A DNA stretch of 64,000 nucleotides from Paramacrobiotus metropolitanus (lineage: Eukaryota > Tardigrada > Eutardigrada > Parachela > Macrobiotidae), in contig NW_026570222.1 in NCBI RefSeq assembly GCF_019649055.1, forward strand, positions 1,426,001 through 1,490,000. Reading direction: 5' to 3'. Each line of letters opens with the position of its first letter. The stretch's first letter is position 1. Of this stretch, positions 4-18,592 are shown one piece after another. The translations under genes were made by a program, and so were the position numbers. The notes under the pieces are model-generated. The model saw only the letters and a program-made list of their open reading frames with translations. It did not search any database and was not told the origin of the DNA.

Positions 4-532
4 TATGGAATTCCGAATGGCCGGGAGTTTTGTTGATGTTTGCTGTTTGATTCAGAAAGTTTGATCAAAGATCAATGATTACAAGACAATGAATTTGGAT
101 AGTTTGGTTTAAAACCATTGATTTTCAAATCAGTGATTTTCAGTCAATGATTATGAATCAATGATTTTCGGACACCATGATTTGAAATCAGTGATTTTTA
201 GTGATTATGAATCAATAATTTTCGGACACCATGATTTGAAATCAGTGATTTTCAGATCAGTGATTTTCAGCCAATGATTACGAATCTATGATCTTCGAAA
301 ACCATGAATTTGAAATCAGTGATTTTCAGATCAGTGACTGTAAATGACTGACTTAAATGGCTTGATTTTGGGTTAGTGAATACATTTCACAGGCGATTGA
401 ATTAAAATCAATGGTTCATTAAAGACTGATTTGCAATCATTGATTGCCCTGCACTGACCTGCCATCAGTGATTTTCAATACGCAACCGTCGCCGCGTGCA
501 CTGGATGCCGCTATTCGGACTTGGAAAACACG
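4..532 (+). repeat. Left inverted repeat of the 3.4-kb element, TGATT-rich
   Basis: This is the reverse complement of 2938-3419, with scattered mismatches and small indels. It has a unique outer part of about 60 bases, then many imperfect copies of units such as tcagtgattttcag and tcaatgattatgaatc, then an inner unique part ending near cggacttggaaaa. The arms differ in length because some sub-units are present in different copy number. Reiterated motifs inside long terminal repeats are typical of multiple binding sites for a transposase or accessory protein; that role is inferred. Confidence 0.8.
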
Positions 533-1789
533 AAAATGTTTGGTATCCAGTGCACCGTAGACTCTGCGGCACAAGAAAACCGTCTTAAAACGCGGCTGCG
601 CACTCCTGTTCACTACCACCCAACCAATCCGAATTGCGCACAGCTACTCAATACTGAGTCCAGATAACTAATTGCTAGTGCAGCTTTAATTCTAGCATAA
701 TAATGATGTATTACTTGTGACATTCAACTAAAATAATATCGAAATAATACATTTTCTTCTGGATAAGAACTTGACATTTCATTAGCAAAGATGAAATAAC
801 AACCACCATTGCTTTTACATCTTCCATTAACTGGCAAACTGAAAATCGACGAGAAGCAATATGTATATCAATTGAACATCTTAACTTAGAAAGCTTATTA
901 ATCCTTTTGTAGTAATGTACATAAAAAATGATAACAATGCGTGCACATAGATTTTACTTACTTTTCGAAAACAAAAACTCCGTTCAGTATATATGGATAA
1001 ATTTTGTAATGCTCTGCAAGAAAATTTGACAACATTCTAAACAAATACGAAAGCAACACATGTATCTGAATCATAGAAAGCAAACATTTTACAACAGGTC
1101 GTACATTGAGATGTACTGCTGGCTGTACGATAAATAATGCTAATGGTATTGCTAAATTGAACTTGGTGCTCTACAGGTTAGACTGCAGGGCATGCACTAG
1201 GTTGTACTCGGGCTGTGCTGCAGGTTGTACTACAGGAACATTAGGCAAACAAGCGAGGCAAACCAGCACGCCGGGGTCGGCCGCACTATAGCCATATGGC
1301 ACAAGATATCAGCTAAGCATCTTGAATATTTTCTTAATTGTATTTTATCACATCAGAAAAACAAATATAGTAATAGCACACAGAATTTAGGATATTAAAA
1401 AATTTAGGCAGCCCATCGCAATGATTGTTGATTTGTTTAACGTAATGCATCTGAATTCTTAAATACTTTTCTGAGCGCAATATAAGTCACCCTATTAACA
1501 CTTTTTTTGCAAAAAACTAAAGACAAAAGTGTTTTTTTTTCTGAAAGCTGCAGATTGTCCGCGTCTCTGGTTTTATGAATTTGTTAATTCGGCTCGATGC
1601 AGTGCTAAAATTCATTAATAATTTTGTCTTGCGTATCAAATATATATCCATGCTTCCAGTTTACCGGTTTCAATTTTTACGCCTCAAATTATTTCTAATG
1701 TGATTAAGTATAATTACAAAAATATTCAATATGCTTAACTAATATCTTCTGCATTTTAACTATACTCCGGCGTGTACAGAACTTGTTTG
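533..1789. other. AT-rich interior of the 3.4-kb element, no gene seen
   Basis: I see no convincing coding region. Two patches, near 1100-1275 and 1765-1835, carry short related units of the form gtactacagg followed by cattaggcaaacaag, in opposite orientations. Related units recur near 2570-2660. They look like short internal repeats belonging to the nested structure. Confidence 0.5.
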
Positions 1790-2590
1790 CCTAATGTACC
1801 GCCTGTAGTACAGCTCGTAGTATAGCCGTAGTACACTAACAAGCAAAATATTTCCATTGAGTTATTCTCACATACCAGACGCCTATCGCTTTATAGAAAA
1901 AATTTTTGTAGTGGGTTGGTTTCTATTTTTATCGTTTAAAAACATGTAAATTAAGTATAGCATTTCGTCCTGTGACGTGTCTGTGCGCACTTCAAAGATG
2001 CCGCCCATCACGCATCGGAGATACCGATCTTCTGCAGCGCTGATTGCGGGCATGCTGCATCGCGTGGTTATTAGCTTGGCTGATCATATCCGGATTTAGC
2101 TGAAGCTGGCACAAAGTACGCTGTAGATTCTGAGCACTAAACACTTGAACGCGGTGTAATTTTGTTTGTGTTCTAAAATTCCAAATCTAATTTCGACGAT
2201 TTTGAACCTTAAATGCACATGAAAATATCAACAATCTATTTTGTGAACTCTTTGTAAACTCAAAACTAAAGCAAATAAAGACTCTTTATTGCCAACGCAG
2301 ATGTCGTACAGGCGGGCCAGCGCTCAGTTTTCACCGAATTTCAGTATTTCGGATGCGTGATGGGTGGCGTCTTTGAAGTGCGCACAGACGCGTCATTGGA
2401 CGATTTGCAATACTAACTTCATTTTTTTTAAACGATAAGAATAAAGACCACCCCGCTATAAAAAACACTGCTTGACAAAGCTAATTTTTCTCCATAAAAC
2501 GATATGCGTCTGGTATGTGTGCGAATAACTCAATGGAACTATTTAGCTCGTAAGTTTAGTTAGTGGGAAAGCCTGCAGTACAGCTTAATG
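1790..2590. repeat. Nested inverted repeat inside the 3.4-kb element
   Basis: Bases about 1790-2040 pair with about 2310-2590 in inverted order. Matching blocks include ttccattgagttatt, cataccagacgc, atcgtttaaaa and gtctgtgcgcacttcaaaga, followed by cgcccatcacgcatc (left) against the complement of gatgcgtgatgggtggcg (right). The loop between them is about 270 bases. The arms have diverged more than the outer ones. This could be an older element into which, or around which, the outer element formed. Confidence 0.75.
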
Positions 2591-2937
2591 TTCAGCTATC
2601 ACTGGTCAGTCTTACTTAATGTACATCCTGGAGTACCCGTTAATGTCCTGCCTGGAGTAAAAGCTTTATGTTTTTCGTGACCGGATCACTGGAACACTTA
2701 TATTATCTCGCTTGCATAGAATGCCATCCTTTTCTTCTTTTACAGTATAACAGAATTTATGGTGATATACAGAACTTCGTTTAACTTGTTTTTCGCATTT
2801 TTCATCAAATAATTAAAAATGTGAAGCACTGCAACATATCATTATTTGTGTATCACTCTGAATGATTTCTAAACCTTTTACTGGAGTAAATTTATTGGAA
2901 TCGGTAGATAGGAATCGGAACTTGTAAAGCGTGAAAA

Positions 2938-3419
2938 CTTTTCCAAGTCTGAATAGCGGGTTTCCATTGCACGCGGCGACGGTTACGTATTGAAAATCAC
3001 TGATGGCAAGCCAATGAATGGCAATCAATGATTGCAGGTCTGTCTTTAATGAATCATTGATTTAATACAATCACCAGTGAATCACCAGTTAATTGTATTC
3101 AGTGATCCAAAATCAAAACATTTAAGTCAGTCATTTTCAATCACCGATCTGAAAATCACTGATTTCAAATCATGGTGTTCGAAAATCATTGATTCATAAT
3201 CATTGACTGAAAATCACTGATCTGAAAATCACTGATTTAAAATCATGGTGTCCGAAAACCATTGATTCATAATCATTGACTGAAAATCACTGATCTGAAA
3301 ATCAATGGTTTTAAATCAAACCATCCAAATTCATTGTCTTGTAATCATTGATCTTTGATCAAACTTTCTAAATCAAACAGCAAACATCAACAAAACTCCC
3401 GGCCATTCGGAATTCCATA
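2938..3419 (-). repeat. Right inverted repeat of the 3.4-kb element
   Basis: This is the mirror copy of the left arm. Shared landmarks in inverted order are the gcacgcggcgacggtt block near 2970, the atcaatgattgcaggtc block near 3025, repeated tgaaaatcactgatctg units, and the terminal ccggccattcggaattccata. Confidence 0.8.
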
Positions 3420-3486: not shown

Positions 3487-3787
3487 TGTACTGTACTATG
3501 GCGTACAAAACGCGCAAAATTAACATAACGTGAAGTGCTGAGTTATGAATGGTGATCTATAATTAGTGAATAATAACTGCTGATTAATAAGTGTTGATTT
3601 TAATTACATCGGTGATCTTTAAGTGGTGATTTAACAACGGTGAATCAATAGTGCTGATTAAATAAGTAGTCCTGATCAGATAGAGCTGATTAGATAGTGC
3701 TGATTTAACAATGATGATAAGACTGGGGTGATTAAAAGTGTAAAAGTGGTGATGATAGAGTGGTGATTTATCAACGTGACTGCCGCC
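3487..3787 (+). repeat. Left terminal inverted repeat of the 15.1-kb element
   Basis: This matches the complement of 18316-18592. It opens TGTACTGTACTATGGCGTAC, continues cgcgcaaaattaa, aacgtgaagtg and attagtgaataataactgctgat, then becomes an array of about fifteen ggtgat/gctgat/gatgat words, and closes with tttatcaacgtgactg. The spacing of the TGAT words is irregular. Confidence 0.85.
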
Positions 3788-4429
3788 TCCTGAACCGGAA
3801 GCCTAATTTCCGGACTTCGAAGAATTTTCTGAGTTCTTGTACATTCCAATTCCACCCACCAGTTCCAATGAGTGAGTGGAATTTAACGCATTCTTTGGAA
3901 GTGACAGTTATTTTTACTGGAAATGCTCTTCTAATGGTACTGAAATTTGTTTATTCTTAGCGACTTTGGATTATTGCGATCCATTTAAGAGCAAGTCTCT
4001 AATTTTTCAGTATTTATCACTTTATTTGTTTAGAAACCAAGAGAAATTTGAAATGGATCAGTTTTTTCAGTTTGCGTACTCGGTTGTAAGACGTGCGGAG
4101 CGTTATTTAATAGTCCAGAATGGGATCAGGATCAAGATAGTTGACGGAGCGCTGACAGATGGATTATTTATGGGTAACTTGCCCAAACAGCAACGGTTGC
4201 TGATAAATTTGTTGGAATTTTGAATGTTTTCTTTGTTAGATATACGAGAGATATCTGCGAAAATATTCCGGAGGAGCGGACGGTAAGCGCAAGAGCTTTT
4301 TGATGTGTTAATAAACTACTCCAGTCGCTTACGGGATCTACTGCAGAAGACGAAAACGGACTGTGTCCGTTTCCCATCACGCAGCACACCAGATGGAAAA
4401 ATATTCTTCCGGAGGATGATTTACTGATC

Positions 4430-5566
4430 TGCGGTTCGAGGTTATGAATGTATTGCTGAGCTGTATGGAGTTTCTAAGAGGACCGTCACGTACAGATTGG
4501 CAGATGCTGGCTTGAATAGGAAAGTAAGGGATGTGCCAGCATCACGGCACGGTTGGGTGTAGTACTCGTAGATATTTTAGTTCGTTGCAGATTTGCATTG
4601 GTGAATTCTTATCTTTTTTGATTGTTATATACGGTATAAGCAGGCTATGTGTTAATTTAAATTCGTTTGCTTTTTCAGTACTCGGAATTGAGTGATGGAT
4701 TTGGATCGCGTGATTGTGGACATTTTAAATTCGTTCCCGAACGTAGGATATCGTTACATTAACGGCCAGTTAAAATCAGGAGGTTTAACAGTTCAACGCA
4801 CGAGAATTCTGGCTTCTATGAGAAGAGTGGATCCTTATGGCATAGCCAACCGGTTTTTCCATTTTGTTCCTCGCCGCGTTTATTCAAATGCTGGACCGAA
4901 CGCGTTGTGGCACATTGATGGCAATCACAAGTTGGTCCGCTGGGGATCTGCATCTACACGGTATTATTGACGGTTATTCTCGGACGGTTATTTCCCTCGT
5001 CGTTGCAACGAACAATCGGGCAAGCACAGTGCTGCAAGCCTTCCTCGTTGGTGCTGAAGCTTGGGGAGTACCGTCCAGAGTGAGAAGCGATTGCGGCGGT
5101 ACAATACCATTTTTGCGCTTTTGTCAGTTTTGCGATTTTTGCTTTTCCTCAGTGTATTTTTCTTTTTACGAGTCGTCAATTCTCAGTAGTGAATGATCTT
5201 ACTATTTTTTTCAAATTAGGAGAAAATTTCGGAGTTGCACGCTGGATGGAGCATTATATGGGGCCGAACCGCGCCAGTATCATTATGGGACCGTCAGTTC
5301 ACAATCAGCGGATAGAACGGCTTTGGAGAGACTTGGGTCGCGTTGTGATTAAATTGTTTCGATCTATCTTCATTCACATGGAAAATATGCGAATTTTGGA
5401 TATGACCAGTGCCCGCGACATGATGGTTTTGCACTTAGTATTCACGGAAAGAATTCAGGATAAGCTAAATAGCTTTATTTCCTTTTTTAATAACCACAAA
5501 TTGCGCACGGAGGGCGAGAAGTCACCAAGGCAGTTGTTTGTTCTCGGCTGTAATCAGAAGGATTGA
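4430..5566 (+). pseudogene. DDE integrase/transposase of the 15.1-kb element, frameshifted
   Basis: A short helix-turn-helix-like stretch (ELYGVSKRTVTYRLADAGL) lies near 4460-4516. An intron ends at the ttttttcag before 4680, and the catalytic core follows. The core shows WHIDGNHKLVRW with the first catalytic Asp, DGYSR, NNRASTVLQAF, then VRSDCGG with the second Asp, and after a 121-nt intron (5099-5219) HNQRIERLWRD with the catalytic Glu. This layout is that of the integrase-core transposases widespread in cnidarian, mollusc and fish genomes. One extra base near 4698 and another near 4945 each shift the frame, so this copy cannot make a full enzyme unless these are assembly errors. The stop is at 5564-5566. 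Further N-terminal exons may lie in 3760-4230 but I cannot join them with confidence. Confidence 0.8.
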
Positions 5567-5685
5567 AAGGTTTTCCTCTGGAAGAAATCTTGTCGGCTGA
5601 TACTGCCTGACGCCGACGTGGATGTCGCAGAAAATTTCCGCAGTACTTAAGAAATCAAGTTGGCCATTCCAGGGATTCTGTCCCG

Positions 5686-5985
5686 GTGTGCGATATAATC
5701 AGCCGCTTCCCTGTTGAAGCTCAGTTAATTCGGGCTAGTATGGATCTGATGCGGGATGATGGGTTTCATGGAATTCAGGTTTTGCGAAGCAAAGGAAATG
5801 TTACAACATTATTTTGGATAAAGGTAGATATGACAAATCAGTGTATCCGAATTTTAGAAAACCCGTGGTGTTACTCCGTTGATATTACTGATACCGGCAG
5901 AGTTAAAAGCGATAGTTTAGATGGAAGAAGTGAGCTTTATGTCATAGTAAGTGAGCGTTGTATTTACTGCTTCTGCCGAATTTAA
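5686..5985 (+). pseudogene. Probable C-terminal tail of the integrase
   Basis: An open frame of 99 codons begins 120 bases after the integrase stop. Its first 35 codons, around PVEAQLIRASMDLMRDDGFHGI, resemble the conserved tail that follows the catalytic core in this transposase type (a proline-rich start, a short helix, then a DDG-HGI motif), by my recollection of the family. The tail is separated from the core by stops in this frame, so it is either a further exon or another break. The last 60 codons are not recognised. Confidence 0.4.
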
Positions 5986-6389
5986 GGTTTTGTAAATTCT
6001 GGATGTGTTGTTTTATCGTGAAGGCGCAACGGCCTGTTGAAAACTAAACATACGGCGAGCATATTAAGTGAAAAGGCCGCTGCGCTGACAGAAAAGTCTA
6101 ATTTAATACAGTAGTAACTATTACTGCGCATTAAATTTAATACAGTACGCCGCCTCCTGAAAATGTGCCGCCGGTATTGACGACACATAAAATCCGATGA
6201 AGTGCTATTCCGTACAGGCTGCTATTAAAATTTACGTCTATAAAGTATGATACATTCACGTGCATTATTTTATTGTCGGAAGTTTTATGAATTGATCCGG
6301 TTTGTTTCTGGTCTCATTCAGCTGCGTTAAGGAGTCCGGCATCCCTGCACGCACGCGGGATCGGTTGACGTGGATCACGCTGCATCATT
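5986..6389. other. Spacer between integrase tail and Piwi remnant
   Basis: I see no gene. The sequence is likely to include decayed upstream Piwi exons, because the Piwi similarity starts abruptly in the PAZ region, but I cannot align them. Confidence 0.4.
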
Positions 6390-7735
6390 TATCTTCCCAT
6401 GGCTATGAAGATCGGCAGATGAACAAGCGACGACTCTGTCAGCTGACTGGCATCCAGGATGATTTGCGGGCAAGTTTTGCGGCCATGAAGGTACCATTTC
6501 TCCGCTGATGATTTATTTACTTTTGTATTATAGAAAATTCTGTGCCTAAAAGTGCCTTTTGAAACTTGAGATGATTGTGGTTGAAATTCTGATGTACTTT
6601 TAGTACACCGTTTAATTAATTCTTTGTAAATTTCAAGTATAACAAAACATTGTAAGGTTGCACAGAGGTTGCGAGTATTGTTGCTTGCTACACGTACAAC
6701 GCTTTGTCTGTACTGTGGAACTTTTAGTACTTCAGTACGGCGTTTTGAAATATCGATATTTGATACTGGTTAAGGCGTTTATGTTTGACAAATTCACTTT
6801 GCTCAGGCCATCGCCATAGCCACCAAACTGAATCCCCAACAGCGTGCGGAAACAATCAAGGGTATTTTAAATGACCTTGACCGAGGCCAAGAGGCCCAGA
6901 AAATTCTACAGACGTTCGGCATCAAAATTAGTAAAGAATTGCTACGTATGCCTGGGCGAGTGTTACAGCGCGAACAGCTTTATCTGTGGTCAATCACCAA
7001 ATCCCGTTACTGTTCCGGAAAACGGCGACTGGACGCGTAATACGACCGGTGGAAAGCTTATGGATCCCAGAGGGCGGAACATTGGACCTTGATTTTCGAA
7101 AAGCGGGACCAAAAATGCGGAAGATTCTGCTCGCGCCTTCCGTGACGCCAGTCAAAGTCTTGGCATGCCGCTCGGAAATCCTCAGATAATGATGCTAACT
7201 GCCGATCAAAACATCACATATGCCCGTAGCATTGCTAAAGCCGCGGTGGAAAACGAAGTATAATATTTTTCTCTAATAATTAAACAAGTTTTTCTATGGA
7301 TATCACAGTTCTAAACTTGTTTAATCGCTTCGCAGGTCATTATGAGTCGTACACTGGGAAGGTCAGATCGTTTGCGCGCATTTGCGCAGAAAATCGCTTT
7401 GCAAATCAATTGCAGGCTGGGTGGATCCATTTGGCATGGCTAAAATGCTGACAATGTAAGGCTAAATCTGCTTTTATGAAGATAATGATAACAAATTTTG
7501 TATTGTTAATTTGTTTTTCAGAAGAAAAGATCCAATGAGTCTTGTGGTGATTGGAGTGGACGCCTGTTACGACATCAAACGAAGAAAAGATTCGATCGCA
7601 GCTTTGGCTAGCACGGACGACGATTTCACGCACTGGCATAGTCGTTGTAACTTTCAGCCACCAAAAACGGATTTGGCATCAGGGTTAAAGTTTTCGTTCG
7701 CTTGTGCAATGATTTCGTATGCAAGGGTATGAGCG
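6390..7735 (+). pseudogene. Decayed Piwi-clade Argonaute, PAZ end to first part of PIWI domain
   Basis: Consecutive blocks match a Piwi protein in order. LCQLTGIQDDLRASFAAMK (end of PAZ) is followed after an intron by LNPQQRAETI and MPGRVLQREQ near 6820-6970, then GDWTRNTTGGKL near 7024, a MID-like stretch SARAFRDASQSLGM near 7122, SRTLGRSDRLRAFAQKIALQ near 7342-7402, and the PIWI core IGVDACYDIKRRKDSIA near 7550. The first catalytic Asp is at 7559-7561. Block frames change at least twice (near 6970 and 7110) and there are in-frame stops, so this is a pseudogene. Introns are retained, so it was copied from DNA, not from a processed mRNA. The exon that should carry the second catalytic Asp is absent; an aminomethyltransferase fragment occupies its place. 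Piwi proteins use piRNAs to silence transposons in the germ line. Confidence 0.85.
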
Positions 7736-8143
7736 TTTTAGTAGAACATAAGAGATTTGACTTTCTCAGACGTTTTGCAGGTAGTCCCGGTCAATGCCGT
7801 TGATTTATCAAGACCAGTCCATTTCGGAATCTCACATCCATACTCGGAAACACTACAGTATTTTTGATGAAAGTACAGTATTGCTGACGGAAGGTCTTGC
7901 ATTTTTCTTGCGTGCCGTGTATTAAATTATGATTTTATTTTCGTGTTGATATTAATTTATGCTTAAAAAAGTACCTGTTAAGTATCTCATGGTCAGTCAG
8001 CGGTTACGATACTCGTACTGCCGATTACGTTATCCTGTACGTTACCACTACCGTAAAGTCCATGTATTATTTTCCATGGCTGTATGCATCGGATTGTCTG
8101 AATTTGTGAATGTTTACTTTTTTGTTATGCTGTTTTAATTGTT

Positions 8144-9660
8144 GTGCAGGTGTCTCACAAGCAACAGCTGGTCATTCACGGCAACGATCGGCATGAGTTC
8201 TGGGAATCTGTTTGCGTGTCGGATGTTAAAAAGCAACCGGAAAACAGCGGCACATTAAGTTTGTTATCCAACGAGAGCGGTGGCATCATTGATGATACGG
8301 TGCAGATGAACACCAGTCACGGACATCTCTTCGTAGTTGTTAACGCCGGTTGTGCGGCAAAGATCTAGAATATTTAACGAAAAAAGTCTTGGACTTCCAG
8401 AAGAAGGGGAAGGGTGCTCAAATGGGCATCGTGACTGTGCAGGAAAGAGCTTTGATTGCAGTTCAAGGTTTGCTGTAACGGAAATCTGTATTCATAATTG
8501 CTGTTCAGGTTCAGTTGACTTATTGCACGTCTTTACGGGTTACGGATTATATAAGTGAGTTCTCACGTTCTGTTTCAGCATGACGACGTTTAAAAAACTG
8601 TTAAAAGTATGTATTGGCATGGAGTTATCATATTATCGATAAAAACAGACTTTTTGTCAGTATTGTACCTATTCGGCATTATGTTAAAGAAAAATCTGCT
8701 TTGGTTTTCGTTCGTTTGATTCGAAGTTACGGTCAGAGTGACACTTAACCTTTTGCCGTATATATGTCCTTTTTTCTCTGATTAGAACCGGAAATGTCAA
8801 GAGTTATTCAGCCCGGCTTAAAGGATTCGTTGGATAGCTTGGAATTCCTGCAGACTACGTTTTGTACACTGTACGGATTTGAGGGATGTCGAACTACCAA
8901 ATGCGGCTACACCGGCGAAGATGGCGTTGAGGCACGTGCTTAGTGCTTACACTATGGACGCTCTAGTGTTCCCATGCATAATTCAAACTTCAGATATCCT
9001 GTCTTTCCATGGACGCTCTAGTGTTCCCATGCATAATTCACTATGTACGCTTTAGTGTTCCCATGCATAATTCAAACTGCAGATATCCTGTCTTTCCAAA
9101 GATGCTGCGCCTTTATGTGATATATTGTTAAAGTCGCATGAAGGGCAGGTACGAATGGCTGGTTTGGGAGCCAGGGATTCACTCCGGCTGGAAGCCGATC
9201 TGTGTTTGTCCGGAAACGATATTAACGAACAAGCGACACCGGTAGAAGCTAACTAACCTGGACGATAGGTAAACCTATTAAAGCAAGCAAAAAATTTCAA
9301 AGTATTCCAAAATTTTTTTAATTGTTGGAAATATATGCGTAATTGTAGGAAAACGCCGTCGCAAAGAGGGTGGAATTCCGGGTGCAGAGAAAATCCTTCC
9401 CCAAATCAAAGGGGGGTGCAGAAGAAACGTGTTGGAATTATTTCCACTAGAGCACCTGCCCGAAGTATGAAAACTTGCGGGCATATTACGCATGACATTG
9501 TATGGATGTGATTTATCAAGGATGTGGTATCGTTTGCATGTCATCCCAACAATGCTTTTGCAAACTTGGAGTTTGTCCGTAAAATGTGGAGGGAAAAGTT
9601 TCGAAAATGCCTTTTGTGGAGGCAAATTATTACCATGCCAAAGGACATAAACAGAGCTAA
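8144..9660 (+). pseudogene. AMT: Decayed glycine-cleavage T protein (aminomethyltransferase)
   Basis: Blocks in order match mitochondrial aminomethyltransferase, which passes the glycine methylene group to tetrahydrofolate: VSHKQQLVIHGNDR (8150), SGTLSLLSNESGGIIDDTV (8249-8305), VVNAGC, FEGCRTTKCGYTGEDGVE near 8880-8932, [19 protein letters not shown] near 9168, TPVEAN, then GKRRR across an intron near 9350, and SKMPFVEANYYHAKG before the stop at 9658-9660. Frameshifts occur near 8355 and 9253, and there are internal stops. The N-terminal quarter is missing. The retained intron shows this is not a retrocopy. It lies in the middle of the Piwi remnant and on the same strand. Confidence 0.85.
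8954..9097 (+). repeat. Tandem repeat inside the aminomethyltransferase remnant
   Basis: A unit of about 55 bases, beginning atggacgctctagtgttccc, occurs at 8954-9008 and 9042-9097, with a truncated copy of about 33 bases between them. It falls in what would be an intron of the remnant. Confidence 0.85.
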
Positions 9661-9968
9661 TGTCTGGCGTTACAGTATTACAACGCGCTAAGCAAAAGTA
9701 TGTAACTGGCTGACCTATGATTCCGTTATGTTTTTGGTTTCGCTGTCGTTCGTTTTTTAGCCTGTGCAAGATAACGGGATCGTCATAACTGCATTGTTAT
9801 AACTGCACTCGTTTTTTTGTTACTAATTGTTAGTTGTTTGAGTTAATAATCCTATGCGCAAAAAAACCAAAGGTCCATAGTTGTATTTGACCGGCGGTTA
9901 GCTTCATTTGCCGCATAATGTGTTGAATGCATTGCAAATAAAATTCTACCTGTTTTTTTACAAAGCGC
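9661..9968. other. Spacer between aminomethyltransferase and Piwi remnants
   Basis: I see no gene. A short pyrimidine run and AG precede the Piwi block at 9983, consistent with a former splice acceptor. Confidence 0.4.
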
Positions 9969-10393
9969 ATGATGTTATTGCAGAAAAATACTTTGCTGAA
10001 TCCTAAACCAGGAACCGTGTGCGATGAAGGAATTACTCGCCGGGATATGTACGATTCCTATCTTGTGCCGCAAAATGTGCGTGAGGGGAGCGTATCACCG
10101 GTTCGTTTCATTGTGTGCTGCCAGCCGCCGGAACCGAGGTTGACCGTGGATGACATCCAAGGCTTAAACTGACCGACATGTACTACCACTAGACACCGGA
10201 ACTATTCGTGTGCCGGCATCTTGCATGGTACGTTCGGAATAATATGTTTCATTTCAGATCGTAGTTGAAATCAATACGCTGTTGATATTTGCAGTATGCC
10301 CGAAAATTGGCGTACCAGAGTGGAGCATGCTATGAACGCAGCAACCGGACACAGCGCTGCTGGAAACATTATTTTATCTGTAAACAGCTGAAA
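9969..10393 (+). pseudogene. Piwi C-terminal exons, catalytic His replaced by Arg
   Basis: This continues the Piwi copy after the aminomethyltransferase interruption. LLNPKPGTVCDEGITRRDMYD and VREGSVSPVRF match the late PIWI domain. After a frameshift near 10180, LDTGTIRVPASCM leads through an intron (about 10229-10292) to YARKLAYQSG. In Piwi proteins the corresponding stretch carries the last catalytic residue, a histidine after Tyr-Ala. Here the codon at 10301-10303 is cga (Arg). The stop lies at about 10391-10393. With one catalytic exon missing and this residue changed, the copy could not slice RNA even if it were expressed. Confidence 0.85.
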
Positions 10394-10439
10394 TAAGATC
10401 CCGCATGGTAGAAACGGTGTGATTGTATTTTACGGATGT

Positions 10440-10545
10440 GAGTTCGCCATGCTGGATGATTTGCGGGTAAATTCTGCGTCGATGAAGTACTTCGTATGTC
10501 AATTCGCCTCTGCTGATTCATTTTACTTTTTTCCTCAAAAATCGT
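10440..10545 (+). pseudogene. Second, very short Piwi PAZ remnant
   Basis: The bases gatgatttgcgggtaaattctgcg and the following aagta and ctgctgattcattttactttt match 6453-6530, which is the PAZ-end exon and the start of its intron in the main Piwi remnant. Because the similarity crosses the exon border, this is a DNA-level duplicate. It lies just after the C-terminal end of the main copy, as expected for a former head-to-tail pair. Confidence 0.65.
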
Positions 10546-10967
10546 TTCACACGAAAGTTTGTTGTCGAGAATAATACGCGTACGGTAAAAATCTGCAGTG
10601 GAACACGACTAATGCGCGGAAGCCTTTGTTTTATGCCGGCCAAAATTTGCAGACAAATGATTTGCGAGCGGCATGGAAGATCTAAGTTACCGCATGTGGG
10701 CTGTCTGTTCTTGTTCCCACCTGCATGCCGCTGTAAGCTGCTGAGGCGCCAATGGTTATTTATTCGCAGCTTGCTCGTAGCTGGTCAGTTATTGCCACGC
10801 CTTACGCATGGGCTGCTGTAAGAACTGTTAAAATCATTTTAAGCGGCAGATTCAGATTAATTCACATCATTCGGTTTCTTTTAAAGTGGAGCGTAGAAAC
10901 ATCGAATTTTATCTAATTTTCGTTGACAAAACATTTTTTCGTTTTGCGTTTCGTGTGTGTGACTAAA
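10546..10967. other. Region upstream of the HECT gene
   Basis: No gene is recognised. It should contain the promoter and 5' leader of the HECT gene. I see no clear TATA element at a convincing distance from the start codon. Confidence 0.4.
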
Positions 10968-13900
10968 ATGGTTGATTTTAGCTATAAATGTGGGGTAAGA
11001 GATTGCCCATGTGTGATCCCATTAAAGGCTGACATCGATTTTTCCTGGAGCGGACCGTTGGGCGGGCTTAAATGCAGTGTTTTTGGATGTAATCACGAGT
11101 ACGGTCTGCATATTCGCTGTAGTTTATTGGCAGCTGTTAATCCCGAATTGAATTCAAACATGGGAAACTCCGCTAGCCATCGCCCCTTATGAATGAAAAT
11201 GAAAATGCTGCAAGTATCACCGGATCCACAACTACAGCCCAGCACGCTGCTATCAGCCCGCAAGGAAGCGGAGCACAAATTGTTCAGCCGCCAGTTCCTG
11301 GAAGCAGAGCTCAGGTTTTCACAGGAAATGCGGGGCAGGGTCAATATCAAGCCTTTAATATGGAACCTTACGGCTTGGGAAGTAGTTCAGTACAGCCATT
11401 GCGAAACTTCCAGCAGCGTGAGTTGCCATGGAGTACATTTGGCGGTGGACAGCCAGGCATTCCAAGAGCACCGGCACGTGGATCTGTACCACCTGGATTT
11501 TCAAGCAATTCGAATGTAGGAATTTCATCTTTGCCGGTCGGCAGTGGCCGGGGCGGCCGGCGAGGCCGTGGTGGGCAGCAGTATGCAGTCAAACGACCCA
11601 GAACGGAGGAATTTCGCTCAATGACCAGTTCAAACCAATTCGGACAGCCAGTGAATCAGAGGCCAGTAGTACACCGTAAATATCCCATGGAGATTTACTT
11701 TTTTCGTAGCGCCGAAGGAAATCAGATTCCGTCCCAGCGAGTGGGGTAAGTTTTTGAATTTTGTGGGTGTAAGGGTTTTTTATTTGAGCAAAATTAAAAC
11801 CTTAAATATTTGTCCAGTTTTAATTAAAAAATAAAATGTTTGTACGCTAGTTAGTTTTTAACGTACGTTTTATGTTTGAAATGTATACGTTTTTTTATAG
11901 TGATGTTATTTACAGCGAATATCAGATGGAACTAGATTTCATGCGGAAAGCGGGACTAATTCGGCAAGTTGAGTTTGACGTACTGGAAGGACGTCACATC
12001 TATACAAAAATTTCCGAAGCATTTGGCGATTGTCTTGGCAACCAGGAATGGACGTTGTTGAGCCGACTTGATGAGCCGGGAAAGCTAAAGAGTCCGTTTA
12101 TTTGGCCAACAGATTTGGATGTTTTATCTCCATCTTGGGCGGATCAAGACTTGTACGTACGAAGTGAAAAATGTTAAACCGTTAATTTCGCATAAAATAT
12201 TCTGTTGGTTTGAACTGTCGCGTACGATTTTTAGATACACCGAGAGGGCCCTAAACCAAGCGCGAAGACGCATGTATATCGCTCTAGCTCATGGTACACT
12301 GAATATCCCGCGGGAAATTTTTGAGGAATTTGCTGCGGTAAATAGTTTGTATAAACAAAACGATATGACGTATGCCGCTGTGATAATGTGTGTTTACAGG
12401 ATCAAGGAAGAACTGTGGAAGAACTGGATTTACGAAACGTTCCAAGTAATAAATACATCCGAGGTTAAAACTATATTGCTATCGTTACTAAAAAAGACTT
12501 TTCCAGCTGGTATCACAAATTCCCGATCCCCTTTTGGTCTGCGAGAAACATCCCGTGCTTCTACATCCGCCTTGGGGAGTGCCTCCCGTGCTTCTACATC
12601 CGCCTTGGGGAGTGCCGGCCGTGCTTCTACATTCGGCTTCGGGAGTGCATCCAGTGCATCATCCGGCTTCGGGAGTGCATCCAGTGCATCATCAGGCTTC
12701 GGAAGTGCCTTCGTTGCTTCTACATACGGCTTTGGAAGCGTGTCCGCATCAAGGAATTCCTTTCGGGGACGGTTAGACGATACTTCTCCGTCTCCACCGT
12801 CTTCACCGGATTTGCCTCGCCGTCGTCGCGGTCGATTAATGTTCAACGATAGTGCTTCTGGTCGTCAATTAAGCAATAACGTCATCGTACTTGGTGACTC
12901 GGATAACAGCGAAGCTGAAGAGGAGAAGAAGAACGCTGTCGCGGCCAGTAGTGCCGCAGTTACAGAACAGGTTATTGGCTTTGAACAATTAAATCGAACA
13001 AAAATTTATGGTTTTTATTTCGCAGATTATTGAAGTCGCTGAATTTCCTGAAGTTGATCCAGGCGCAAGTGAAATATCGATTGAAAGCATGAGATCTCGG
13101 CTGTGCTTAAAAGTTACCGGTCAGCGACCAATGGTCAAATCCGACATCGTATTTGTTTGGATTAAAAGAAGCAGCAACGTACAAAATTTTATCGACTTTT
13201 ACTATGCGCGTGCTGATGGTTTGGCTTATGGCGGAAGAATGGAAGTGGAAATGGATGAGTAAGTGTAATAACTTTGCTTTTCAGTTTGAAGATTTTTGAC
13301 ATGTACATAAGCGCGCTACTGTAACAGACACGGGCTGTAACTTGTGAGATGTATTATGTAGTTTATGCACCGGTACTGAAAACTTTATTAAAATACGCCG
13401 TGTTAAAGATAACATGCACACAAAAAGTTTATTCTTGTAGTGCGTCGGATTGGGACGGGCCTTTCAAAGAATGTATCACGGAGCTTTTGGAAGGGTTCCG
13501 CTCGTACAAGATTCCGGATGTTGATATTGATTTATTCGAAGTGACTGATGGGATTACTTTGATAACCGGAAAAGCGATTACAACAGAAGGAGGTATCTCG
13601 GCTTTGCGGGCATTTGGATTTCTTCTGCGTGAAGCAATACTTCATGGGAGTCCGTTCCCTCAGTGGTTTAATAATTCCGCTTTCCGGTACGTTCTGAACT
13701 TGCCAGTAGAAGTGAATGACATTTTCCGCTTCAACGTTGGAACCGGCGATACCATCAAGGACATCCTATCGGGCACGGGGCCGATCGTCTGGGCAAATGA
13801 AACATCCTTGCAGACTTGGGCAGAGAATCATCCAGCTTTCCCGGTAAAATTCGACGAAATTGCCCTATAATATTAAATTTAAGAAAATTGAACAGCTAAC

Positions 13901-14567
13901 AACGTCTCTAAATTGTGGATAGCACTGAAATGTTGTATTGCAGACTGTTGCGTTGGTGCAACAAGGACGCCAGAAATTGTGTCGACACATCGCCGAGTAT
14001 GAACTGTGCGGGAAGCGAGCCTCTAATTTGAAATATCTAAGTGAAGGTTTGCTGGCCGGAACGATGGGAAAGGTATGAATCACTGTTTTTGGTTCCTTGT
14101 GATTTCCCTTACTTGCAATAAAATCGTTGTAGGAGCTGAGAGAAATACGTGCTCAATGGAAATTCTTCGAGAAAAGCCTTTATCGAGAATTCGAAGAAGT
14201 AGACGATTTGCTGGAAGAGTTTCTGCCGTACAATGAACATGCCGAAGATATTAGCGATGAATTGATGGCTGAGCAGCTGCAGATTGTGAACTGGTTTGAT
14301 GAAATTGTCAAACACGACCTGAGCCACCATGAACGACGACAACTGCTCCGTTTTGTTACTTCCGGGTACCGCATTCCGGCCACTCCGAAAATCGCAATTG
14401 TTTTTTCCGTTGGACGAGAAGAAGAACGTCGCCCTCAGGCATCTACGTGCAGCCATAAGCTTATGCTGCCCGTCGGATGCGAGTCCAAGGACAAACTGCG
14501 GCTGCACCTTCGCGAGTGCATTTTATCTGTGGACAGCGAGATGGCGGGATTTTTCCAGATAAAATGA
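10968..14567 (+). CDS. HECT-type E3 ubiquitin ligase carried by the transposon
   Basis: Ten exons join in phase without a stop to give 939 residues: 10968-11135, 11177-11745, 11901-12152, 12235-12337, 12400-12463, 12507-12970, 13026-13258, 13441-13843, 13944-14072 and 14133-14567. Residues 8-51 hold a compact Cys/His cluster (C8, C13, C15, C36, C41, H43, H48, C51), probably zinc-binding. A Gly/Ser/Arg-rich linker, a Ser-Ala-Gly repeat (about 396-464) and an acidic Ser stretch follow. The last 400 residues resemble a HECT domain: the N-lobe motif RAFGFLLREAILHGSPFP, then LLRFVTSGYRIPATPKI and PQASTCSHKLMLP, where the Cys at about residue 901 (14448-14450) is the thioester cysteine, 38 residues from the end as is usual for HECT enzymes. 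The E2-binding part is divergent. The first intron (41 nt) is the least certain join; if it is wrong, the protein starts at 11189. Confidence 0.8.
12540..12745 (+). repeat. Coding minisatellite in the HECT gene
   Basis: Six imperfect units of 30-33 bases, beginning cgtgcttctacatccgcctt, encode repeats of the type RASTSALGSAS. The first two are nearly identical and the later ones are more diverged. Because units are multiples of three, copy number can change without breaking the frame. Confidence 0.85.
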
Positions 14568-15412
14568 ACAACGTGTAAGAGAAATTTACTTTATTAATGA
14601 CTATTTGAATTTTTAACACCTCTAATTCAACCATAAATCACATAATTAAATTAAATTATTGCTAAATCGCTGTATTTTTTGAGGGATTGTTAAGCGGTAG
14701 CTGGGCAGTCGTGTGGAGTGAGAAATAACGGATTTGTTTTCGTTCCTGATTTGGGTGGAATAATCAACTAAATTTGGATCCGACTTGAATGGATTACGGA
14801 ATATTGGACTTCATTTAGTTTTGCAACATGCTGTTAATGGCTTTAATAACCGTTAAGTGGAAATCTGTTTGGTTTTAAAGGAAATTCTCCAGCACAATTT
14901 GCTGGCCGCATAGCATATGAATAGCCGCATGGCATTTGAGTACTAGTTCCTTCGGCAACGGGAATGTTTTTTATGTTCCAGCGTAATTAATTTCAATAAT
15001 TTGTTATCCGTGTTTCATGTTATGATGGAGAAACTGAACTGATTTTGATTAAACGCGATGTTCGTCAGCCGAAAAATCTGTTACCGGCTACTCGGAGCCA
15101 ACTGCAATATTTCCCACACGAGACTTTCAAACTTTTAACCGGTACCTATACTTAAATAACATCTATTATCACTCAAGTCTTAAGCGCGCAGCCCACCTGG
15201 ATCATGATCTGTTCGGCTCATATTAAAACCATCTAACAAATAAAATTGACAGAATTAGGTATGTAAAACACAATTGTAGTAAAGAAATCATTATGACAAC
15301 GGAATCAAATGCATCAAGAAAACTTCCTCGAACTGAACACTTCGATAACTGCGGTAATCGGAAATAGCAATCCATTCCACACGGTGCCCAGTTAATGACC
15401 GACCTTCCCCGC
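14568..15412. other. Non-coding stretch between HECT gene and ADP/ATP carrier remnant
   Basis: No gene is recognised. The stretch contains the presumed 3' region of the HECT gene and lies downstream of the carrier remnant, so the two are tail to tail. A short direct repeat of the type gccgcatagcatatgaa is seen near 14907. Confidence 0.4.
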
Positions 15413-16779
15413 ACCTGGCTGCAGTTCCATAGCACGTCTCAATTCATCAAAAATAACTAATACAAGTGCACCACCAACGCCACGGAACATGTTGGACAGG
15501 GCGCCCATAAAGAATGTCGGGAAACCTTAATTTTTGGCAATTTTCATCATGGCGTCCAGTGAATTCTTGTAGAGAATTTCGTTGCCTGCCGACTGCATCA
15601 TCACGCGTCGTCGCACGGTATCCCACGGATACCTAAAGCACAAACAAAATTCAGAAAACGTACTAATAACGGAGCTGAGTTAGAATTATGCCATAAATTC
15701 GGCAAACGCCGTGACGGTGAGGGCGATCTTAAAGTTAAGCATGATGGGCACTCTGCCTTCTTTGAAGTAAATTTTAAATGTGTCAGATACACCAAAATAT
15801 GCAGCTCGATAAATAAATATTCCCTGGACGGAAACGTTGAAGCTGCGATACAAGGCGCGAATGCCATCGGTTTGGTAGGTTTTTCTCATACAGTTTCATA
15901 AACCAGTGAACTTACGAGTCCCCGCGTTCTCACTGACATCCACTCCTAAAAAACAGCTCATTTCAAACGTAGTCAGCCAGTCAGCCAGCAATTCCATGCA
16001 CGTCCGATCTACTGTACTAAACTGTTGAAATCTTTTTGCAATACTTTTGTTCAACATTTGTGTTTGTTGTTCAAATTCCAAAATTCTGAGATTAAATTAT
16101 GGAAATCACATAACATTACACAACAAATGACGTCAATTCCGAAAAACACTGTTGAAAGCAGAAAGAGGGATTGGAACATACGTCTTAATGTAATTAACTC
16201 GGAAATCCAAGTTCTACACTATAAGCTGGTATAATTCCATAAATCTATTAATTTTAAAAAAATAATTCAGTTACTCGCAATAACGGATAATCAACAATTT
16301 CGATCCGGTTAAATGAAACGAAGAACTAAACTTTCTCGCAAAGAACCAGTCAGTATATAGTACTCGTACAAGTACATACCAAGCCGAGTTCGGGCAAAAT
16401 CCAAGGTAAAACCAGCGACGTCATACCAGCTGCACCCCCGGCCAGAACATGCCCAAGAAGGAGTAGAAAAACTGTTTATTCTTGTCAACGCCCGACAAGA
16501 AGATGCGCTCACATTGGCCTTTAAATGCAAAATTCAAGGCTTGCGTGGGGAAATACCGAATGACGTTGCCCCAGTTACCACATCAGAAATTGATTTATCC
16601 CCGCTCCTCCAAATACAAATGAAAGCGCCCATCTTGCCTTTATAGCGCTGCTGCTTTCTATAGTCTTTCTGCACCTGTTTAATGAGCTTGACACGCTCTA
16701 ACGGGGCTACAGCCGTTTTGGAAATGGCTGCGGCAATTCCCCCGGTCATAAAATCCTTGAATACTGCTGTCGCATCCAT
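15413..16779 (-). pseudogene. Decayed mitochondrial ADP/ATP carrier
   Basis: Read on the minus strand from 16779, blocks match the adenine nucleotide translocator in order: [20 protein letters not shown] and [11 protein letters not shown], the matrix-side signature of the first repeat; [17 protein letters not shown] in another frame; TDGIRALYRSFNVSVQGIF and YRAAYFGVSDT; PWDTVRRRVMMQSAG, close to the hallmark RRRMMM motif with the first M of the motif changed to V; and GVGGALVLVIFDELRRAM at the end. Frame changes near 16590 and in-frame stops (for example near 15690 and 15530) make it a pseudogene. The gaps fit retained introns, one without a normal GT donor. The protein exchanges ADP and ATP across the inner mitochondrial membrane and has no obvious role in a transposon, so it looks like captured cargo. 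Confidence 0.85.
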
Positions 16780-17316
16780 GATGAAGGTATCAGCTACGTC
16801 AAATTATCCGAGGGAGGAACCAGCGATATGCAGTCCTACGAAAATATAAAAGTACGGATGACCACCTGCGGCGGCCGCTGTCTGTATGCACAAGCAAGTT
16901 TACAGTGTCAAGGGGGATACACGCTGCACACGCAGTCATTCAAATCAATTTAACAATGACGAAAAACCTCGCAACTTGCTCAAAGATGTTGTCCAAACTA
17001 GTACTGTAGCAGAAAACGCAACAAATCAGATACCTTGCAATCCTTATCGTAAGCATGGCAAGGTTTACGATAAATTGTTTATTGTAGGCTTTTACGACAA
17101 TTCGATTAAACGCAGGAGCACTAGTGTTACTTAAATTTTAATAAAACGACACGTAGCGAAACCACTTACAATCAAGAGACAACCAGTGGCAGAAGGTCTG
17201 TAGTCGTTCCTGCCGGCCGACTTATTTTCAAATTTCGAAAAACTTTAACCTGTTTAATTTTTACGCAAACCTTAACTTTATGGTTCTTCATTTTCAACAC
17301 GCCCACAGAAAGTCTT
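16780..17316. other. Spacer between the carrier remnant and homeodomain gene
   Basis: No conserved coding region is seen. An open frame at 16886-17134 has no recognisable motif and is within the length expected by chance. Confidence 0.4.
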
Positions 17317-18106
17317 TCACGCCTTCAATCTCAATCTCGTCCGAATCCACTGCAAGCATAACGTCCTTGCGCGCAACAACTTGAACAAGACAAAATCATC
17401 GTGTAAATAACTGTATCGACCACGCAAGCTGGCTGCACACCGAAATGCAGCGATTACGAGCACGATGCAAATCCTCAAGTTTTCACAGACCTTTTTAAAC
17501 TTTTCCACCATTTCTGGGCTGAATTTACCGCAGCCTGCCTTCAAGCTGCAACACAAAATAAACCGTTTTAAAAAATGAATTTAAAATCATTACTTAATTT
17601 AAATGATTACTAATTTCGGATCGGTGCACTTACTTTAAACTTTCCAGAAAAGCAAAATTCAACGGAATGCCGTCATGCACTTCGGCCGACTGGTTCTCCG
17701 GAACAGTCGCAGATGCGGCAGATAACGAGGAAAACACATCTGCAGGCTGCAGCAAATTCACATCCTGTGGTAGACGAGGTTGAAACATAACAGTAGCGGA
17801 TCCCACATCAGCCTGTTTCTTCTTTTCTGCCAGTTGTGCGAGTTTCTTCCCTTTCTCTCGGCGATTCTTGAACCAAGTCCAAACTCCTTTTTTCCCGTGG
17901 CTTCCAGGTTGGCCGATTTTTTCAGCGATATGCGCGCGGGCCACGGAATAAGGAATTTTCAGCCCTCCATTATAATAAGCACATAATATCAAGCTCTGCT
18001 CAAGGCTGAAAATGCTCTTTAGTGGTGTACTGGCGGATTTTTGGGTTCTCCAGAACTTCTCCACCGGCTTCCATTTTCCAAATGATAAATCAAATGACTG
18101 CCACAT
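17317..18106 (-). CDS. Homeodomain-like DNA-binding protein next to the right terminal repeat
   Basis: Two exons, 18106-17634 and 17545-17317, join in phase through an 88-nt GT-AG intron to give about 233 residues. Residues around 31-80 fit a homeodomain fold: FSLEQSLILCAYYNGG (helix 1), VARAHIAEKIG (helix 2), a loop about five residues longer than usual, and the recognition helix VWTWFKNRREKGKK, in which W, F, N and R occupy the conserved helix-3 positions. A Lys-rich stretch follows and could serve as a nuclear localisation signal. The second exon is Cys- and Arg-rich with no known domain, and its reading is less secure. The start codon lies about 210 bases from the inner edge of the right terminal repeat and transcription runs inward. 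A role in binding the TGAT words of the terminal repeats is plausible, because homeodomains favour TAAT/TGAT cores, but this is inferred. Confidence 0.65.
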
Positions 18107-18315
18107 GAATCAAAATATTCCTAGAAAACCCAAGAAATGGGAAGAACGGGAAGAATTCAGTTTTAAAAAGCTGGGCGCATATTCGCAAGTACAGTACTGT
18201 AAAGTGTAAACAGTAAAACTAGCACAGCGGAATGGCAGACACAGATGACTCAGCATTTAGTGAGTCGAACGTGCTGAACGAAACCACAAGTTCGTAATGC
18301 CTTTTCCGGTGCACA

Positions 18316-18592
18316 AGGCGCCAGTTACGTTACTAAATCACCACATTCCAATCATCACTTTTACATCAGGAGTTTAAGCTCACCGCTTTTGAACTCACCA
18401 CTCTTAACTTACCGCCCAGAACTCACCGCATATAAATCACCGATTAACTCTCACTTTCACATCCCCATTTTCTAATCAACACTAATTTATCAGCAGTTAT
18501 TATTCACTAATTATAGATCACGGTGATCACCACTCATAACTCATCACTTCACGTTATTTTAATTTTGCGCGTTTTGTACGCCATACTGTACA
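18316..18592 (-). repeat. Right terminal inverted repeat of the 15.1-kb element
   Basis: Read on the minus strand it opens TGTACAGTATGGCGTAC, then cgcgcaaaattaa, aacgtgaagtgatgagttatg, attagtgaataataactgctga and an array of ggtgat/ggtgag words, ending gtggtgatttagtaacgtaact. The unique blocks are almost identical to the left arm, while the TGAT-word array has diverged. Confidence 0.85.

Follow-up and report, generated by a model that had tools for sequence, protein, structure and literature searches.

Transposons of the IS3EU superfamily have TA..TA termini, usually generate 6-bp duplications, lack an HHCC motif and place the first catalytic aspartate of the transposase 100–300 residues from its N-terminus (PMC10045372, in the passages used here). 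The rust-fungus TET+ IS3EU elements end in TAYGG..CCRTA and have alpha-kinase and TET/JBP dioxygenase partners (PMC12730594, in excerpt); the same excerpt names transposons with silencing-related enzymes of their own (TET/JBP, SET and Vandal proteins). Giant eukaryotic transposons with accessory host-like genes have also been described, as have Burro retrotransposons with ubiquitination-related motifs, and ubiquitination is among the suspected targets (PMC6431247, in part). We analysed a stretch of 64,000 nucleotides (the window, C2:1426001-1490000) of the 169.8-Mb genome of the tardigrade Paramacrobiotus metropolitanus. It contains a 15-kb interval which probably arose by a single recent insertion of a giant DNA transposon of the IS3EU/GingerRoot type, with a core of an integrase and a HECT ligase, the ligase presumably being kept for the benefit of the element.

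The tardigrade elements resemble IS3EU/GingerRoot transposons, as characterized in the cited passages of PMC10045372, in their TA..TA termini, 6-bp duplications and HHCC-less transposase with the first catalytic D at residue 225. In contrast to these, they add a stable HECT partner, are 14–17 kb long when free of a large insert and carry, in one family, captured Argonaute and carrier pieces. Their ends TATGG..CCATA agree with TAYGG..CCRTA of the fungal TET+ elements, which likewise have extra enzyme genes beside the transposase; the fungal partners, however, are an alpha-kinase and a TET/JBP protein, and the terms HECT and ubiquitin are absent from the text of PMC12730594. With the giant transposons and Burro they share a large size, accessory host-like genes and ubiquitination among the suspected targets, but Burro is a long terminal repeat retrotransposon and the term HECT is absent from the review PMC6431247.

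The earlier note on this DNA knew of no described family with this gene set. The termini, the duplication length and the transposase features do fit IS3EU/GingerRoot, and an IS3EU-type element as such is therefore known already. The stable HECT partner is what appears new. No HECT-bearing transposon was present among the matches listed in the open-licence literature (titles and starts of abstracts), a scope that excludes Repbase and does not establish absence in print, and HECT, G2E3 and ubiquitin do not occur in the main text of PMC4255032.

Boundaries and copies of the giant element

The interval has the following features (window coordinates):
3491–3496, no strand: left target-site duplication CTGTAC
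3497–3599, plus strand: left terminal inverted repeat, begins TATGGCGTACAAAACGCGC
4053–5776, plus strand: gene for a D,D35E integrase/transposase (rva_4), with a broken frame in the window copy, homologous to the proteins P0007 and P0008
6789–10166, plus strand: degenerate Argonaute pieces, ArgoL2 at 6789–7040 and Piwi-like pieces to 10166; introns apparently retained, judged by eye
10968–11192, plus strand: cysteine-rich N-terminal segment of the HECT gene, in a different frame from the remainder
11360–14564, plus strand: HECT E3 ligase gene; tblastn blocks of P0001 (811 aa) at 11360–11746, 11917–12159, 12236–12976, 13023–13259, 13442–13846 and 13935–14564
15392–16803, minus strand: degenerate ADP/ATP-carrier-like fragment (Mito_carr, above the cut-off)
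17630–18109, minus strand: homeodomain-like open reading frame (ORF), 159 aa, coding not maintained between families
18474–18585, minus strand: right terminal inverted repeat
18586–18591, no strand: right target-site duplication CTGTAC

The element is 15,089 bp long (3497–18585) and its inverted ends begin with TATGGCGTAC. The repeats at 3497–3557 and 18525–18585 are 95% complementary, and the match extends to 3599 and 18474 at 87.5% if a 9-nt insertion in the right arm is allowed. A genome-wide search with the first 27 bases (at most 3 mismatches) gave 13 sites, and none with the reversed control pattern. The near-identical inverted repeats of the earlier note are thus real. Its exact bracketing by these repeats is upheld by the repeats and the CTGTAC flanks, but the interval it gave, 3487–18592, is too wide by 10 and 7 bases.

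Twelve of the 13 sites face each other in six pairs, and one (C82) is unpaired. Target-site duplications, for which the earlier note had proposed to look, were found at both ends of the window element (CTGTAC) and, as perfect 6-bp duplications of a different sequence each, at all six pairs. Five pairs delimit giant copies of 15.1–41.8 kb (C2, 15,089 bp; C34, 15,091 bp; C5, 17,460 bp; C26, 17,344 bp; C112, 41,832 bp) and the sixth, at C88, a 979-bp copy. Over their whole length, C34 and the window copy share 98.7% identity. A second subfamily comprises C5, C26 and C112, with a mutual identity of 99.3–99.6% and about 91.5% identity to the window copy where aligned. Since the copies align between their own, different duplications, the interval moves as a unit. 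The C112 copy has about 24.7 kb extra inside, perhaps nested elements, and is otherwise 99.6% identical to C5. The 979-bp copy (C88:417214-418192) has both ends and the duplication CTTCAG, and looks like an internally deleted derivative.

A second terminus type, first seen at C4, was found at 21 sites in the genome (reversed control, 0), which form 10 pairs and leave one lone site. Five pairs are 15.3–24.3 kb and five are 3.0–3.9 kb long; all five long ones contain integrase, HECT and homeodomain-like matches. Perfect 6-bp duplications flank eight of the ten pairs; at C4, 5 of 6 bases match, and C231 has no matching duplication. Two further types came from single loci. Scanning C28 for TA..TA ends flanked by a 6-bp duplication yielded a single candidate of 16,529 bp, with 20 of 20 end bases matching (TATGGCGTACC) and the duplication CTGAAA. 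C8 has an inverted repeat of 252 bp whose TATGGTGTACC ends lie 14,287 bp from each other, together with a 5-bp repeat TATAG. The 6-bp duplications are thus found in 6/6 pairs of the window type, 8/10 of the second type and at C28 (1/1), with only the 5-bp repeat at C8. All four types share TATGG..CCATA, the exceptions being one C88 end (TAAGG) and one C9 site (TATCG). By analogy, the D,D35E transposase would cut at these ends and insert the element with a 6-bp staggered cut.

Twelve giant elements were defined in this way, ten from the two genome-wide terminus searches and two (C28, C8) which hold both genes by choice. Ends were sought from the gene matches at C28, C8, C4 and C312; integrase and HECT also stand together at C2:458k, C3, C421, C88:19k, C45, C61 and C86:54k. 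Integrase and HECT lie inside all ten elements from the terminus searches, and the two genes co-occur in four terminus types, two of them via the chosen loci. The giant cut-and-paste element proposed in the earlier note is supported, as the same repeats enclose both genes in the same order in five of five giant copies of the window type and five of five of the second type.

The integrase and HECT genes

The integrase match in the window is to PF24764 (rva_4; 122.8 bits in Pfam). The homologue P0007 has the catalytic residues D225, D282 and E317, a D,D35E core, and a weak helix-turn-helix precedes the integrase core. Ahead of D225, P0007 has one cysteine and three histidines, with one histidine at a distance of two residues from D225, and P0008 has three cysteines and two histidines before its core; judged by eye, HHCC spacing is absent in both. 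A sequence search of P0007 against solved structures gave no match, and the 120 integrase homologues listed of 2,943 are without family labels.

The HECT match in the window is to PF00632 (55.8 bits); in P0001, the 811-aa NCBI model which maps onto the window gene, the domain scores 59.3 bits over positions 35–299 of 306, and the scores across the database models are 56–59 bits. The block edges listed above are approximate exon boundaries and some blocks span introns. The gene was considered intact in the earlier note. Its catalytic exons are indeed open, but a frame shift near 11,180 separates the N-terminal cysteine-rich part. The database models are 881–897 aa long at three other loci, and the window model, which lacks the N-terminal part, has 811 aa. 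A profile of four HECT sequences aligns to the C-lobe of UBE3A with the catalytic cysteine matched, as in HECT E3 ligases, and the motif TCS is present in P0001, P0003, P0005 and P0006. The element HECT differs from these ligases in its weak similarity to the solved HECT structures (best E of the profile, 7.4e-6) and in that relatives were found in P. metropolitanus only, where those from other families are 47–49% identical to the query. A search of solved structures with the single protein P0003 gave no match. The structure model of P0003 is poor, with a predicted local distance difference test score (pLDDT) of 34.1 overall, higher in the last 150 residues. HECT ligases occupy every one of the top 23 ranks in the fold search with this model (E values to 7.1e-3, template modelling scores mostly low), a result that can be only supportive. 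A stretch of about 100 bp beyond the HECT gene (15003–15101) has 81% identity to C4 and may represent a cis element or a short conserved exon.

The rva_4 model found 28 loci in the genome and the HECT searches found 33. HECT lies within 15 kb at 20 of the 28 integrase loci and, conversely, 20 of the 33 HECT loci are near integrases, where 0.17 would be expected from uniform placement. A recount with the Pfam HECT model only, which leaves out C61 and C56, two loci found only with the element's own HECT as the query, gave 19 of 31. The 13 HECT loci away from integrases comprise one weak match (C56) and twelve others that are presumably host genes. Across the loci the integrase may precede HECT on one strand, the two genes may be convergent, or HECT may precede the integrase. 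The longest unbroken integrase matches, 436-aa open frames at C86:257749 and C158:198217, have no HECT within 15 kb and are candidates for smaller elements or domesticated genes; all other integrase matches are interrupted by introns or frame breaks.

Purifying selection acts on both genes between the two window subfamilies. The ratio of non-synonymous to synonymous substitution rates (dN/dS) for the window copy against C5 is 0.05 for the integrase (224 codons; 23 synonymous and 5 non-synonymous changes), 0.13 for the HECT catalytic exons (391 codons; 17 and 8) and 0.32 for the HECT N-part (298 codons; 14 and 15). The corresponding values are 0.50 for the Argonaute fragment (198 codons; 13 and 25) and 0.88 for the carrier fragment (204 codons; 6 and 19). 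Substitutions between the window copy and C4 at the three codon positions number 18/8/43 and 18/9/49 in two integrase stretches, and 49/40/82 and 50/36/93 in two HECT stretches. The dS between the subfamilies is higher for the integrase (0.18) than for HECT (0.07), a gap that we infer to be a sign of mosaic exchange.

The quality of the assembly has to be considered for the broken frames. Comparison of the window copy with C34 shows 32 substitutions and 113 insertion or deletion (indel) events; 76 of the indels involve a single base, and 70, by a loose homopolymer criterion, adjoin an identical base. In the first 8.9 kb, C5 differs from C112 by 9 substitutions and 23 indels, and from C26 by 4 and 35. 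The published P. metropolitanus genome is described as a Canu assembly, with Oxford Nanopore Technologies reads (PMC11191345, in the part used), and the assembly analysed here is apparently the same. The indel excess matches an error-prone long-read assembly, so that some HECT frame breaks and the integrase "relic" of the earlier note are not safely biological: the integrase frame is broken in the window copy, but the break is probably in part an assembly error. The true age of the copies may be lower than gross identity indicates.

Captured pieces and neighbouring elements

Two of the three broken host-gene copies proposed earlier could be identified, Argonaute and ADP/ATP-carrier-like; the third was not. 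The Argonaute pieces resemble a gene at C2:260-262k (72% aa identity) and the carrier piece one at C62:687k (78%), which are presumably the host's own. The Piwi score is above the cut-off in C5, C26 and C112 and below it in the window copy (28.2 vs 28.9 bits), and ArgoL2 in the window reaches 32.9 bits against a cut-off of 33.3. All five giant window-family copies have the Piwi-like part; the ArgoL2 stretch (6420–7051) is unmatched in C5, C26 and C112. Among the elements, both pieces were found only in these five copies. They are captured host fragments decaying as passengers. Small RNAs from the Argonaute fragment could, as a speculation, touch the host gene.

The earlier note had considered that the product of the homeodomain-like ORF could serve transposition or host interaction; a role as a working partner gene is one which we reject. 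It scores 21.8 bits in Pfam, just under the cut-off of 22.9. It is broken in C34, reduced to a short remnant in three of the five window-family copies (C5, C26, C112), and has, in the five giant C4-type copies, a 7-nt insertion common to all of them. Its substitutions between the window and C4 are spread evenly over the codon positions (19/20/21), with no codon-position constraint. The ORF was not found in C28 or C8, where the sequence inspected was the entire stretch from HECT to the near end, without the middle, and a protein search with it gave 0 of 37 candidates. Its single-sequence structure model is poor (pLDDT 40.9). The ORF is a relic. Its nucleotide identity between the window and C4 is 83–84%, against 72% for the integrase, and so it was probably passed between the families at a later time than the core genes. 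An open homeodomain match at C416 proved to be a different gene, a genuine homeodomain (44.5 bits).

To the left of the giant element, at a distance of 77 bp, the window contains a separate insertion:
4–3419, no strand: foldback element, 3,416 bp, second-type termini TATGGAATTCCGAATGGCCG, duplication CGAGTC; outside the giant element

Its terminal 20 bases are the same as those of C4, and it is one of the short second-type pairs (3.0–3.9 kb), together with C10, C37, C137 and C231. The 3.9-kb pair at C231 contains an integrase and no HECT match, and its flanks are unmatched. At C312, an ORF at 7527–8000 between HECT and the integrase resembles part of an ABC transporter by eye and has no Pfam match.

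Alternative explanations and the role of the ligase

The two repeats might each belong to a separate short element and bracket unrelated genes by chance, as the 979-bp C88 copy with both ends and the foldback element close by would allow. The earlier note had named this, or termini that never flank these genes, as the outcome that would overturn it. Neither was found: C34 is 98.7% identical end to end and has its own duplications, and three more giant copies share most of the interior, which makes chance bracketing extremely improbable. A Polinton/Maverick-like or other virus-like giant element would be of similar size, and Polintons have 6-bp duplications as well (PMC10045372, in part). The ends here are TA..TA, however, and no domain of a DNA polymerase or capsid, both of which Polintons encode themselves, was found among the selected ORFs scanned with Pfam, not every frame being covered. 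Such an origin is very unlikely.

More weight must be given to the possibility that HECT is a captured host gene and a mere passenger, as the Argonaute and carrier fragments are. Such decaying pieces do occur in these elements, and at 8 of the 28 integrase loci no HECT is close by. Against this, HECT is present in ten of ten giant elements from the terminus searches, with two terminus types, it occurs in at least three arrangements relative to integrases, and the dN/dS of its catalytic exons is well below the values of the two passengers (0.13 vs 0.50 and 0.88). We therefore regard a passenger HECT as unlikely. The ligase would instead be active and retained for the benefit of the element, and its conservation suggests that the element uses protein tagging to aid its own movement or its survival in the host. 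It may, tentatively, mark a host protein that restrains the element. An action on the transposase or on proteins of the transposition complex, by way of transposase turnover or disassembly of the complex in the element's own cycle, is possible if doubtful, and the close integrase–HECT association speaks for it. A wider and rather improbable idea is that HECT is a regular second gene of an animal IS3EU lineage and a counter-defence enzyme that has a host transposon-silencing factor destroyed, and that the Argonaute fragment fixed in the five giant window-family copies might be left over from another means, earlier or parallel, by which the element interfered with silencing by small RNAs.

Several points weigh against a giant IS3EU/GingerRoot-type transposon with a selected HECT gene. 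The superfamily fits by termini, duplications and general features rather than by a tree with reference transposases. C28, C8, C4 and C312 were picked as loci holding both genes; an exact 6-bp duplication was looked for at C8 and not found, nor were element ends at C312, sought from the gene matches within 14 kb. The copies behind the association counts are related rather than independent, only the best candidates were scored and some integrase matches are weak scraps. HECT is absent within 15 kb at 8 of the 28 integrase loci, including C86:257k, C158 and C231, so that some rva_4 elements, provided that these loci are elements, do without it. No HECT relatives were found outside P. metropolitanus (6 database matches; 7,997 candidates scored). 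In several copies the HECT frame is interrupted or cut short, though this is confounded by assembly indels, and the change counts underlying dN/dS are small.

As a cautionary case, the locus illustrates that assembly indels can make young elements look dead. If the insertion is indeed a giant transposon with a ligase kept for its own benefit, a selected ubiquitin ligase beside the transposase in several terminus types would offer a new means of acting on host proteins. Both the targets of the ligase and the dependence of movement on it are open to testing, since the copies are very young and the animal's genome is small.

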